The notes under the pieces are model-generated. The model was given only the letters and a program-made list of their open reading frames with translations, searched no databases and was not told the origin of the DNA. From the NCBI RefSeq assembly GCF_021129215.1, contig NZ_JAJOLP010000001.1:2666001-2730000 (forward strand): DNA of 64,000 nt, in the 5' to 3' direction. This stretch comes from Agromyces sp. S2-1-8 (GTDB taxonomy: Bacteria > Actinomycetota > Actinomycetes > Actinomycetales > Microbacteriaceae). Position numbers and translations under genes: made by a program. Below, one piece after another: positions 37,568 to 43,449 of this stretch. Position 1 is the first letter of the stretch. Every line of letters starts with the position of its first letter.

Positions 37568-39646
37568 TCAGGCGTCGATGCGGTCCCGCTCGAGGGCGTC
37601 GGAGCTCTCGATGATGAATTCCTTGCGCGGCGCGACGTCGTTGCCCATGAGGAGCTCGAACACACGACCCGCGTTCTCGGCGTCGCCGATGCCCACCCGT
37701 CGCAGCGTGCGGTGCCGACGGTCCATCGTCGTGGTGGCGAGCTGATCAGCGTCCATCTCACCGAGTCCCTTGTAGCGCTGGATCGGGTCCTGGTAGCGCT
37801 TCTTCTGCTTGTCGAGCCCGGCGAGCACGCCGGCGAGCTCCGCTTCGGAGTACGTGTAGATCGTCTCGTTGGGCTTCGAGCCGGGGTTCATCACCACCAC
37901 CCGGTGCAGCGGCGGCACCGCGGCGAACACACGACCCTCTTCGATCATCGGGCGCATGTAGCGGAAGAAGAGCGTGAGCAGCAGCGTGCGGATGTGCGCG
38001 CCGTCGACGTCGGCGTCGGCCATCAGGATGACCTTGCCGTAGCGGGCCTGCGAGAGATCGAAGCTGCGTCCCGAGCCGGCGCCGATCACCTGGATGATCG
38101 ACGCGCACTCGGCGTTGCCGAGCATGTCGGCCACGCTCGCCTTCTGCACGTTCAGGATCTTGCCTCGGATGGGCAGCAGCGCCTGGTGCTCGCTGTCGCG
38201 CGCGAGCTTCGCGGTGCCGAGCGCCGAGTCGCCCTCGACGATGAAGAGCTCCGAGTGGGCGACGTCGTTGGAGCGGCAGTCGACGAGCTTGGCCGGCAGC
38301 GACGAGCTCTCGAGCGCGTTCTTGCGCCGCTGCGTCTCCTTGTGGGCGCGTGCGGAGATGCGCGACTTCATCTCGGCGACGACCTTGTCGAGCAGCAGCG
38401 CCGACTGCGTCTTGTCGTCGCGCTTCGTCGACGCGAAGCGCTCCTTCAGCTCCTTCGTGAGCACGTTCGAGACGATGCTGCGCACGGCGGGCGTGCCGAG
38501 CACCTCTTTCGTCTGGCCCTCGAACTGCGGCTCGGGAAGGCGCACCGTGATCACGGCGGTGAGACCGGCGAGCACGTCGTCCTTCTCGAGCTTGTCGTTG
38601 CCCGCCTTGAGCCGGCGTGCGTTCTGCTCGACCTGCTGCCGCAGGAACTTCAGCAGGCCCTGATCGAATCCGGCCTGGTGCGTGCCGCCCTTCGGCGTGG
38701 CGATGATGTTCACGAACGAACGCATGACGGTCTCGTAGCCCGTGCCCCACCGCAGTGCGATGTCGACCTCGCACTCGCGGGAGAGCTCGGTCGGCACCAT
38801 CGCCCCCGTCTCGCTCAGGACGGGCACGGTCTCGGTGAAGTGACCGGAGCCGGTCAGGCGCCAGATGTCGGTGATGGGCGAGTCGGGCGAGAGGTGCTCG
38901 ACGAACTCTGAGATGCCGCCCTCGAACTGGAAGGACGTGGTGTGCGGCGTCTCGCCGCGCTCGTCGGTGACGTCGATCGCGAGTCCCGGCACGAGGAACG
39001 CCGTCTGCCGTGCCCGGCCGAGCAGCTCGTCGGTCTGGAACTCGGCGCCCTTCGTGAAGATCTGGCGGTCGGCCCAGTACCGGATGCGCGTGCCGGTCAC
39101 GCCCTTGGCGACCTTGCCCACCACGCGCAGCTCGCTCTGCTTCTCGAAGGGGGTGAACGGCGCTTCGGGCGAGGGCGAACCCGAATCGGCGAAGACGCCC
39201 GGCTCACCGCGGTGGAAGGACATCGCGTACGTCTTGCCGTCGCGGTCGACCTCGACATCGAGTCGCTCGCTCAGGGCGTTCACGACCGAAGCGCCGACGC
39301 CGTGCAGGCCGCCCGAGGCCGCGTACGACCCCGACCCGAACTTGCCGCCGGCGTGCAGCTTGGTGAAGACGACCTCGACGCCGGTGAGCCCCGTCTTGGG
39401 TTCGACGTCGACGGGGATGCCTCGTGCCCGGTCGCGCACCTCCACGCTGCCGTCGGGGTGGAGCAGGACGCCGATCTCGGTGCCGTGACCGGCGAGCGCC
39501 TCATCGACCGAGTTGTCGATGATCTCCCAGAGGCAGTGCATGAGGCCGCGCGAGTCGGTCGAGCCGATGTACATGCCGGGGCGCTTGCGCACCGCCTCGA
39601 GCCCTTCGAGGACGGAGAGATGGCGGGCGGAATAGTCGGAGCTCAC
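37568..39646 (-). CDS. parE: ParE: topoisomerase IV (GyrB-type) subunit B
   Basis: This 692-residue ATPase subunit has VRKRPGMYIGS, the GHKL ATP-site motifs EIIDNSVDEALAG and GLHGVGASVVNALS, and the TOPRIM domain with IVEGDSALGTAK and MADADVDGAHIRTLLL. The C-terminal YKGLGEMDADQL motif completes it. It pairs with ParC. The GTG start is set by a TAGGCT box 8 nt upstream (leaderless). It is divergent from the DUF7455 gene and convergent with parC. A parE next to sigA/hrdB is a recurring actinobacterial arrangement. Confidence 0.93.
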   Translation of the reverse strand: MSSDYSARHLSVLEGLEAVRKRPGMYIGSTDSRGLMHCLWEIIDNSVDEALAGHGTEIGVLLHPDGSVEVRDRARGIPVDVEPKTGLTGVEVVFTKLHAGGKFGSGSYAASGGLHGVGASVVNALSERLDVEVDRDGKTYAMSFHRGEPGVFADSGSPSPEAPFTPFEKQSELRVVGKVAKGVTGTRIRYWADRQIFTKGAEFQTDELLGRARQTAFLVPGLAIDVTDERGETPHTTSFQFEGGISEFVEHLSPDSPITDIWRLTGSGHFTETVPVLSETGAMVPTELSRECEVDIALRWGTGYETVMRSFVNIIATPKGGTHQAGFDQGLLKFLRQQVEQNARRLKAGNDKLEKDDVLAGLTAVITVRLPEPQFEGQTKEVLGTPAVRSIVSNVLTKELKERFASTKRDDKTQSALLLDKVVAEMKSRISARAHKETQRRKNALESSSLPAKLVDCRSNDVAHSELFIVEGDSALGTAKLARDSEHQALLPIRGKILNVQKASVADMLGNAECASIIQVIGAGSGRSFDLSQARYGKVILMADADVDGAHIRTLLLTLFFRYMRPMIEEGRVFAAVPPLHRVVVMNPGSKPNETIYTYSEAELAGVLAGLDKQKKRYQDPIQRYKGLGEMDADQLATTTMDRRHRTLRRVGIGDAENAGRVFELLMGNDVAPRKEFIIESSDALERDRIDA

Positions 39647-39654
39647 GTCGAACA

Positions 39655-39660
39655 AGCCTA
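39655..39660 (-). promoter_or_regulatory. -10 element (TAGGCT) of leaderless parE
   Basis: TAGGCT on the minus strand is 8 nt from the GTG at 39646. Confidence 0.5.
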
Positions 39661-39792
39661 GTGAGCGCGGCCGACACCGGAGTGCAGGCGCTACGCGCTG
39701 AGCGAAATGCCCGGCGGAACGGAAGTCCCCCGCTGCTCCGCGTGTTTTCATTGATGAACAGAAGATCGAGCATGAGCGACGGAGGAGGAGCC

Positions 39793-40026
39793 ATGACCCA
39801 GTACACCGAAACCACCGGTGCGGTCGAAGTCGAGACCCCCTACGAGCTCACGGCGCTCGACCGCTGCGACGCCTGCGGCGCCCAGGCCTACATCCGCGTC
39901 GTCGTTGCGAGCGGCGAACTGCTGTTCTGCGCCCACCACGGCCGCAAGCACCAGGAGAAGCTCTCGCAGATCGCACAGAGCTGGCACGACGAGAGCGATC
40001 GCCTCCTCGCCGACGACCGCAACTGA
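39793..40026 (+). CDS. DUF7455 family small zinc-ribbon protein
   Basis: A 77-residue protein with a likely zinc site: CDAC at about 25-28 and CAHH at about 46-49, separated by two strands (AYIRVVV, GELLFC). The end is a helix, SQIAQSWHDESDRLL. This short family is widespread in actinobacteria near sigA and parE, and its function is unknown. GGAGGAGGAG lies just before the ATG. Upstream in-frame ATGs exist but their frame has no protein character. It ends at a hairpin shared with the convergent gatD gene. Confidence 0.85.
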   Translation: MTQYTETTGAVEVETPYELTALDRCDACGAQAYIRVVVASGELLFCAHHGRKHQEKLSQIAQSWHDESDRLLADDRN

Positions 40027-40107: not shown

Positions 40108-40845
40108 TCAAGCGTCGGGCGCCTCGACGCCGGCGGCGCGTGCTTGCACCGAGCGTGCCGCGGCCGCGTAGCCGTCGACCTCCTCGGAGCGCCCCCCGGG
40201 CGTGTAGTCGACCCCCGCGCGCTCGGCCATGATCGTCAGCAGGCGATCGGCGAAGGCCGGGTTCTTCGCGAGCACGGGGCCGTGCAGGTGGGTGCCGAAC
40301 ACCGAGCCCATGACCACGCCCTCCTGTCCGGAGTCGCGGCCGTTGCCGCCACCCGCGAGCACGCGGCCGAGGGGCGAGCCCTCGGCCCCGATGTAGTCGC
40401 GCGCATGGTTCTCGAAGCCGACGAGCATGCCGAACGCGGGTGAGCGCACGACGAGGTCGCCCGTGACGCGCTCGGCACGCGGCACGGCCCGCCCCGGGAG
40501 GATGCCGAGTCCCTCGATGCTGCGACCGTCCCCGGTCTCGATGCCCCAGCTGAGCAACTCCCAGCCGGTGCCGACGCCGAGGATCGGTACGCCCTCGGTG
40601 CCCCACCGCCGGAGTTCGTCGTGGAGTCCGAGGAGCCGTTCGCGGCTCGCCTCGAGCGAGGCGTCGCTGCCGGAGCCGAGCACGACCGCGTCGACGCGGT
40701 CAGGCAGCACGGCGGCGTCGTCGACGGCACGGACGTCGGCCTCCAGGCCCGCCCACCGCGCGCGCATCGCGAGCACCTGCGCGTTCTGCGCGTCCCCGTT
40801 GGTGTTCTGCAGCGTCGGCAGCAGCGAGACGATCGTGAAGCTCAT
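40108..40845 (-). CDS. gatD: GatD-like glutamine amidotransferase homolog lacking the nucleophile Cys
   Basis: This 245-residue CobB/CobQ-type class I amidotransferase domain is the usual partner of MurT in making D-isoglutamine in lipid II. The fold is recognisable (PILGV, EGLGILPGRA, GFENHARDYIG, THLHGPVLAKNPAFA), and the catalytic His is kept (about 188). The nucleophile elbow, normally G-[IV]-C-G-G, reads G-V-G-T-G, with Gly92 (GGC codon) where Cys belongs. The whole protein contains no cysteine, so it cannot act as a Cys-dependent glutaminase. Its start overlaps the murT stop (ATGA). It is probably a structural or regulatory partner of the ligase. Confidence 0.85.
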   Translation of the reverse strand: MSFTIVSLLPTLQNTNGDAQNAQVLAMRARWAGLEADVRAVDDAAVLPDRVDAVVLGSGSDASLEASRERLLGLHDELRRWGTEGVPILGVGTGWELLSWGIETGDGRSIEGLGILPGRAVPRAERVTGDLVVRSPAFGMLVGFENHARDYIGAEGSPLGRVLAGGGNGRDSGQEGVVMGSVFGTHLHGPVLAKNPAFADRLLTIMAERAGVDYTPGGRSEEVDGYAAAARSVQARAAGVEAPDA

Positions 40846-42113
40846 TCGGTACCCGTCAATCCGAGGTGCGCCCTCGTGCGGCGCATCGAGTCGGCCGAGA
40901 AGACGATCGTCTTCACGCCGGCGGTCGGCGCGGGTGCAGCGAGGAAGTCGTCGAGCGCGCGCGCCAGGTCGGGCTCGATGCGATCGATGCCGACGCCGTC
41001 GTAGGCGAGCATGAGCGCGGCCTCTGCCGCCTTCGATCCGCTGACGATCGCAACCCGTCGGAGCGACGACGCGTCCGCCGGCCAGAAGTACGACGGATCA
41101 CGGACGTCGGACCCGATCGCGAAGAGGATGTCGCTCGTGCCGGGTTCGATGCTGTCCACGTTGAGCTGGTAGCTCGCAGGGTTCTGCACGAGCACGAACT
41201 CGACCTCCTGTCCTCGCACGGTCACTCGCTCGCCCCGGCCGAACACGGCGGGGATCGCGTCGAGCGCTCGCGCCGCGGTCTCGCCCGAGAAGCGTTCGCC
41301 GAGCACGGCCTTCGCCGTCGAGTACGCTGCCGCGGCGTCGACCGCGTAATGCGTTCCGCGTGCCGGCAGCCCGGCGACGACCCGACGACCTTCGTCGAGG
41401 AGCGTGGTCGTGCGACCCTCGACCGAGTCGATCACGACTCCTGCGGCGGGGTCGAGACGCGTCGTCGACGTCTCGGTGTAGCCGAGCCCCCGCGGCGCCG
41501 CGTCGAGGACCGATTGCGAGACGCCGAAGCGTCGCACCGAGACATCCGGCCCGACCTTCTCGGCGAGCCGCTCGAGGTAGGCGTCGTCGGCGTTCACGAC
41601 GACCGACTCCCCCGCCCGGGCGGCGATCCGGCCGAGCATGCCCGCGACCATCTCGGAGTCGTGGAACCGGTCGATCTGGTCGACCATCACGTTCGTCAGG
41701 CAGACGACGCGCGCGTCGACGCCCTGCATGACGAGCGCGCCGTGGCCCTCGTCCATCTCGAGGACGGCGACCTCGCCCGGCACCCGGCCCCGCCAGTCGG
41801 CCTGCTCGAGCAGCGCCGAGGTCAGCCCCTGGCTGATGTTCGCGGTCGACGGGTTGGTGAACACGTCGACGCCGTGCTCGCGGAGGATCGCGACGAGCAT
41901 CTTCGTCGTCGTCGACTTGCCCGCCGATCCGGAGACCACGACGAGCCCCTGCGGGAATCCCGACAGGGTGCGCTTCAAGTAGTTCGGCGCGATCCGGTTC
42001 ACGACCAGACCGGGAACGGCAGAGCCGCCGCCCGGCTTGCGCAGCCGGGCGGCGAATCTGGTGAGTCTGCCGACGAGGATCGCCGGCCCATAACACAGGG
42101 ACCCAGCGCGCAC
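40842..42113 (-). CDS. murT: MurT-like Mur ligase without the Cys4 zinc ribbon
   Basis: A 423-residue Mur ligase of the MurT type. The ATP-binding loop is GSAGKST (about 62-68). TNPSTANISQGLTSALLE, EMDEGHGALVM and TNVMVDQIDRF match MurT substrate and metal regions, and a C-terminal MurT domain follows. Classical MurT carries a four-Cys ribbon between the NADD motif (175-178) and the GxHYAVDAAAA region (253 on). Here that interval has no Cys, and the only cysteines are at 7 and 138. The GTG start lies 7 bp after the sigA stop. Together with the Cys-free GatD partner, it may perform a different ligation on the D-Glu alpha-carboxyl. Confidence 0.85.
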   Translation of the reverse strand: MRAGSLCYGPAILVGRLTRFAARLRKPGGGSAVPGLVVNRIAPNYLKRTLSGFPQGLVVVSGSAGKSTTTKMLVAILREHGVDVFTNPSTANISQGLTSALLEQADWRGRVPGEVAVLEMDEGHGALVMQGVDARVVCLTNVMVDQIDRFHDSEMVAGMLGRIAARAGESVVVNADDAYLERLAEKVGPDVSVRRFGVSQSVLDAAPRGLGYTETSTTRLDPAAGVVIDSVEGRTTTLLDEGRRVVAGLPARGTHYAVDAAAAYSTAKAVLGERFSGETAARALDAIPAVFGRGERVTVRGQEVEFVLVQNPASYQLNVDSIEPGTSDILFAIGSDVRDPSYFWPADASSLRRVAIVSGSKAAEAALMLAYDGVGIDRIEPDLARALDDFLAAPAPTAGVKTIVFSADSMRRTRAHLGLTGTE

Positions 42114-42120
42114 CGGCGGC

Positions 42121-43449
<1,329 letters not shown>

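Follow-up and report, generated by a model that had tools for sequence, protein, structure and literature searches.

In the window analysed here, that is, a stretch of 64,000 nucleotides from Agromyces sp. S2-1-8, we have found a MurT/GatD-like gene pair whose GatD lacks the nucleophilic cysteine of a glutaminase. This anomaly is genuine, extends across the family and is subject to selection. We propose that MurT probably joins the residue that begins the B-type interpeptide bridge to the alpha-carboxyl of D-Glu, with GatD serving as a scaffold. Cross-linking of B-type walls through this carboxyl has been chemically described since the 1970s, and the Microbacteriaceae are a B-type-wall family throughout; the literature supports the wall type for ~10 genera, and the family-wide statement is largely general knowledge. 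The conservation of the pair, its confinement to Microbacteriaceae, and the alternation of its chromosomal slot with amide-ligase/racemase modules all fit a bridge-residue ligase. For this organism, we infer the substrate and the nucleophile as well as the role of GatD as a scaffold, and we draw the connection with the bridge from the chemistry, the distribution and the exchange of the slot.

The two genes lie on the minus strand (Table 1), and the ORF coordinates bear out the 4-bp overlap described in the first-pass annotation of this DNA. The same annotation had pointed to a glycine at the nucleophile position of a Cys-free GatD, and both points are correct. None of the 245 residues is a cysteine, and the phmmer alignment places Gly92, within GVGTGWELL, opposite S. 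aureus Cys94, within TICGGYQFL. The catalytic histidine (His189 equivalent) is retained in the motif GTHLHGP. MurT carries the P-loop GSAGKST, LEMDEG (S. aureus Glu108), NADD, HYAVD, and VRDPSY (Asp349 of the shared triad), and its 423 residues include no CxxC, i.e., no four-Cys zinc ribbon. The small CxxC protein bordering the slot is presumably a DUF7455 protein.

Table 1 Features of the MurT/GatD-like locus in the window (positions within the 64,000-nucleotide stretch)
Feature	Position	Strand	Basis
GatD-like protein of 245 aa with a class I glutamine-amidotransferase fold, nucleophilic Cys lacking	40108..40845	-	ORF, Pfam, phmmer, AlphaFold model
GatD codon 92, GGC (Gly), position of S. aureus Cys94	40570..40572	-	phmmer alignment
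MurT-like Mur ligase of 423 aa without zinc ribbon; ATP loop and catalytic acids preserved	40842..42113	-	ORF, Pfam, model
SigA-like principal sigma factor that borders the variable slot upstream	42121..43449	-	conserved neighbour of the Cys-less pair
Small CxxC protein, downstream border of the slot, used as slot marker	39793..40026	+	ORF
ParE-like topoisomerase subunit, second downstream border of the slot	37568..39751	-	synteny

Both proteins score above the Pfam gathering thresholds, GatD as GATase_3 (PF07685, 69 vs 27) and MurT as Mur_ligase_M and MurT_C (PF08245, 49 vs 24; PF08353, 25.2 vs 25). The NCBIfam equivalog cut-offs for isoglutaminyl synthase, on the other hand, are far from reached (122 vs 450 bits for GatD, 86 vs 800 bits for MurT). 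MurT/GatD complexes are the nearest solved structures both by sequence and by fold: the single-chain AlphaFold model of GatD (mean pLDDT 96.8) is closest to S. aureus GatD (6gs2_A, TM 0.89), and that of MurT (mean pLDDT 92.5) to the MurT of 7q8e, 6gs2 and 9sq9. With the lipid II isoglutaminyl synthase of S. aureus, S. pneumoniae and S. pyogenes the window pair shares the folds, the gene pairing, the P-loop Lys, Glu108, Asp349 and the GatD His. It differs from the S. aureus enzyme in GatD Cys94 to Gly and in MurT Asn267 to Asp, Asn264 to Tyr and Arg133 to Val, as well as at S314, Q316 and K361 of the MurT C-terminal domain.

We have surveyed 150 genomes, a partial sample of the family; 116 gave a GatD match, and 90 loci were read. 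Most loci combine a Cys-less GatD and a ribbon-less MurT; the other main kinds are Cys-containing (Cys+) GatD with ribbon-less MurT and Cys+ GatD with four-Cys MurT (2 pairs). A second scan of named genomes covered 80 loci. Its Cys-less loci all belong to Microbacteriaceae, namely Agromyces, Cryobacterium, Rathayibacter, Plantibacter, Galbitalea, Glaciihabitans, Herbiconiux, Okibacterium, Leifsonia, Subtercola, Frondihabitans, Mycetocola, Rhodoluna, Agreia, Clavibacter, Pseudoclavibacter, Curtobacterium, Frigoribacterium, Arenivirga, Salinibacterium, Schumannella and Microbacterium aoyamense. Its Cys+ pairs come from Arthrobacter, Pseudarthrobacter, Kocuria, Bifidobacteriaceae, Saccharibacteria and Leucobacter. 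Every GatD from nine further families of the same order (40/40) keeps the cysteine. The window MurT and Agromyces MurT share 82-84% identity.

Altogether, 121 Cys-less pairs form a single MurT clade on one side of a tree branch (SH-aLRT 98-100), and their GatDs carry Gly (94), Ala (21), Asn (3), Ser (2) or Thr (1) at the Cys position. Since 121 related GatDs likewise lack the cysteine, a sequencing error at codon 92, which the first-pass annotation had named as a way for its reading to fail, is excluded. Another way it had named, a second intact pair elsewhere, does not apply either: in the window's genome (99.99% complete, 2 contigs) no second GatD was found, the pair is the only one, and the single other MurT-like match reaches 34 bits over residues 55-207.

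We have compared the residues of the 121 Cys-less pairs with those of 45 Cys+ pairs. The equivalents of MurT Glu108, Asp349 and the P-loop Lys are each present in 121/121 of the Cys-less clade. The clade has changed elsewhere in the ligase: GTNGKT of the P-loop becomes GS[NAS]GKS, the YN..N/HN..N motif becomes HY..D, and the Arg before DQ becomes Val, Ile or Thr. The position of S. aureus Asn267, in the adenine pocket, is Asp in 121/121 Cys-less MurTs but Asn in 44/45 Cys+ ones, and that of Asn264, by alignment, is Tyr in 115/121 but Asn in 44/45. Ser314, Gln316 and Lys361 of the C-terminal domain (window numbering) are clade-specific as well. Judged from the alignment, the invariant Asp in place of the adenine-pocket Asn may reflect a shifted nucleotide use in MurT. 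The earlier view of a conserved ligase half with an intact ATP loop is right, and the nucleotide pocket and C-terminal domain are altered across the clade.

In GatD, 34/121 members of the clade have lost the His189 equivalent. The dN/dS values are 0.01-0.25 for MurT, 0.07-0.57 for Cys-less GatD, and 0.08-0.17 for Cys+ GatD. The invariant MurT residues, the loss of His and these ratios show a constrained ligase beside a drifting glutaminase site, with neither gene a pseudogene. This agrees with the first-pass annotation, which had argued against decay, and together with the 121 Cys-less relatives it rules out a pseudogene as well as a sequencing error. Part of GatD may nevertheless be decaying, given that it evolves faster than MurT. 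The faster evolution of a GatD without Cys, and often without His, also favours a catalytically inactive relic with a structural or regulatory role, as does the Asp at the Asn267 position, where S. aureus MurT N267Y is inactive (PMC6113224). We consider such a dead pair very improbable, as the remaining catalytic positions examined in MurT are conserved in 121/121, the MurT dN/dS stays at the values above, and other ligases refill the slot where MurT is missing.

The absence of the zinc ribbon, which had been taken as a further sign of repurposing, is true as an observation and has to be dropped as evidence. Arthrobacter, Kocuria, Bifidobacterium and Saccharibacteria also have ribbon-less MurTs in their Cys+ pairs, so the ribbon is not truly defining for MurT/GatD; it occurs in a subset of MurTs only (PMC6113224, PMC6085368). 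The Cys+ ribbon-less pairs of Micrococcaceae, Bifidobacteriaceae, Saccharibacteria and Leucobacter are in fact the nearest MurT relatives of the window pair. Unlike it, they keep the Cys (VCGLYQLFG) and both Asn of YN..N/HN..N, and they lie outside the sigA-parE slot.

According to the reading that we prefer, the pair would be a Mur-type ligase whose target is the alpha-carboxyl of residue 2, D-Glu, in the lipid-linked peptidoglycan precursor. MurT would activate the carboxyl as an acyl phosphate, and a free amine, instead of glutamine-derived ammonia, would attack it. This amine would most likely be an amino group of the first B-type bridge residue, for which diamino acids, e.g., 2,4-diaminobutyrate, ornithine or lysine, are the candidates in B2-type genera. 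GatD would have lost glutamine hydrolysis and been retained as a scaffold required by MurT. In S. aureus, GatD C94G abolishes glutamine use, while the NH3-dependent activity at pH 8.5 persists undiminished; on its own, MurT has no activity even with ammonia supplied (PMC3266927; see also PMC6085368, PMC6113224). Because of the behaviour of C94G, the natural Cys-to-Gly change should cut off the internal source of ammonia and still allow a free amine to be joined to D-Glu; a Cys-less GatD can thus act as scaffold for such a reaction.

The same mutant also speaks for another possibility, namely that the pair continues to convert D-Glu to iso-glutamine, from free ammonia rather than glutamine, since C94G retains NH3-dependent amidation at pH 8.5; at pH 7.5, however, free ammonia is no substrate for the S. 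aureus pair (PMC3266927). This ammonia-dependent amidase stays alive because amidated D-Glu has been reported in Clavibacter muropeptides (PMC9603630), and the Clavibacter genome that we searched has the Cys-less pair only. On the other hand, the bridge occupies the D-Glu alpha-carboxyl in B-type walls, the slot alternates with amino-acid ligase/racemase modules, and the clade-wide changes in the MurT nucleotide pocket and C-terminal domain are not required by a mere loss of glutamine use. Overall, we regard it as unlikely.

The exchange of the slot is the strongest new evidence for a bridge-starting ligase. The Cys-less pair lies between sigA and the small CxxC protein followed by parE in nearly every genome read, with a few extra copies outside (L038, L048), and a Cys+ pair was never found in this slot among the loci read. 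In 131 genomes with a readable slot, we have observed 81 Cys-less pairs, 24 CofE-containing modules, 10 divergent pairs and 16 other contents, and the Cys-less pair never occurs together with CofE or ATP-grasp (0 among 131). Family members without the pair have in its place a CofE-like F420_ligase, in most cases alongside ATPgrasp_ST and frequently accompanied by one or two alanine-racemase-like proteins (loci L203-L211, L215, L217, L218, L222, L224, L228-L230, L317-L323); a few slots are empty or hold other genes. Seven genera include both types, i.e., the Cys-less pair and the CofE type. The rule also held for an independent draw of seven MurT-lacking genomes (six Microbacterium and one Agromyces), where 7/7 carry a CofE-like gene and ATP-grasp in the slot as predicted. 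This alternative module is absent from the window's genome. One module (L210) additionally encodes a protein which, from its sequence, we take to be an EctB-like diaminobutyrate transaminase. We see about an even chance that the slot is, more generally, a cassette site determining the B-type interpeptide bridge in Microbacteriaceae, where unrelated amide ligases swap together with racemases and a diaminobutyrate transaminase.

Racemase-like genes also stand beside the Cys-less pair in many genomes, e.g., in Leifsonia, Agreia, Salinibacterium, Pseudoclavibacter and Schumannella. In the genomes checked, the slot Alr is an extra copy, with a second full-length Alr elsewhere, which rules out that it is simply the alanine racemase the cell cannot do without. 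It counts against our reading that the genus of the window lacks a slot racemase and that the window's genome has one full-length Alr only. By MurT subclade, slot racemases occur in 0/56 of subclade 1a and in at least 21/66 of subclade 1b. Genera with D-diamino acids in subclade 1b are Herbiconiux, Clavibacter, Agreia and Frondihabitans. A correspondence between MurT subclade and chirality of the bridge amino acid is nevertheless contradicted by Rhodoluna, which is nearest to 1a and has D-Dab (PMC4156110), and is a lead only. Separately, tandem full-length alanine racemases were seen outside the slot in Clavibacter (G153:C17:35600-37407) and Curtobacterium (G401:C15:221867-223626), two genera without slot racemase.

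The racemases and the diaminobutyrate transaminase as slot partners, together with the D-Glu alpha-carboxyl indicated by MurT/GatD homology, also bear on a different role, in which MurT is a wall ligase for another residue or position, such as a non-bridge glycine on D-Glu, and does not start the bridge. They make it look rather improbable, even though B-type walls include Gly at stem position 1 and Gly-containing bridges and the amine specificity of Mur-fold ligases shifts with few residues, as between MurD and MurD2 (PMC8788868). These two and other Mur ligases share the Mur ligase chemistry with the window pair; unlike it, they act on UDP-linked precursors and have no GatD partner.

A divergent second pair, MurT3/GatD3, occupies the slot in some other Microbacteriaceae (L091, L092, L213, L219, L220, L221, L223, L225, L237). 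It shares the slot and a Cys-less GatD with the window pair; unlike the window MurT, MurT3 is very divergent and keeps the CxxC ribbon motifs and the N..N motif. In GatD3, the Cys position is occupied by His (FTHNALEVLG), and the catalytic His is missing. The kept ribbon suggests an independent loss of Cys but does not establish it, as a tree that unites every Cys-less row passes the AU test (p 0.545). A third MurT/GatD-like type, with VVFGTS at the Cys position, a CxxC-rich MurT and an adjoining CofE-like gene, was seen at L212 and L260 (genomes G123 and G053); G123 is the single genome with a divergent MurT together with CofE. In a 0.93-Mb genome of the same family (G015), which is reduced and possibly Tropheryma-like, the slot MurT-GatD (L330) has Ser at the Cys position and an adjoining Alr-like gene. 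Two genomes of one genus (loci L231, L233) showed no module in the slot, which at L231 holds an amino-acid ABC transporter.

The first-pass annotation had proposed testing whether the loss of Cys tracks B-type walls. It does insofar as, among the genomes examined, the loss is confined to Microbacteriaceae; it fails for many other members of the family, which have no MurT-GatD and another module in the slot, and for Leucobacter, which is B-type with Cys+ pairs only. In Clavibacter, D-DAB bridges D-Glu to D-Ala (PMC9603630). The wall of Agromyces aureus is B2-gamma with Dab (PMC5217419), and B2-type walls are also reported for Subtercola, Agreia and Frondihabitans (PMC5945732), Herbiconiux (PMC10011130) and Rhodoluna (PMC4156110). 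The Leucobacter wall is B-type too (PMC4511665). In L. tardus and L. coleopterorum, we have found Cys+ pairs only, outside the slot (L153, L164, L242), and no CofE/ATP-grasp module in either genome; the L. tardus slot, read directly, is empty. Leucobacter is thus an exception that a bridge-ligase function leaves unexplained.

In the library searched, which includes only a minority of subscription journals, we found no literature on MurT in connection with Microbacteriaceae or type B peptidoglycan, and among the papers listed none naming the bridge-starting ligase of B-type walls. If the proposed function is true, the pair would be the first concrete gene candidate for this ligase, with a natural alternative module for comparison, and an amidotransferase would have become an amino-acid ligase by silencing its own glutaminase. 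In that case, the 'MurT/GatD' annotations in Microbacteriaceae would be functionally wrong.

Finally, the window's genome encodes a stand-alone EctB-like diaminobutyrate transaminase (G000:C1:3803813-3805063; L259:6999-8288), with no recognisable ectoine genes beside it. Its protein is 59% identical to the EctB-like protein of the slot module, and fits a supply of Dab for the wall.
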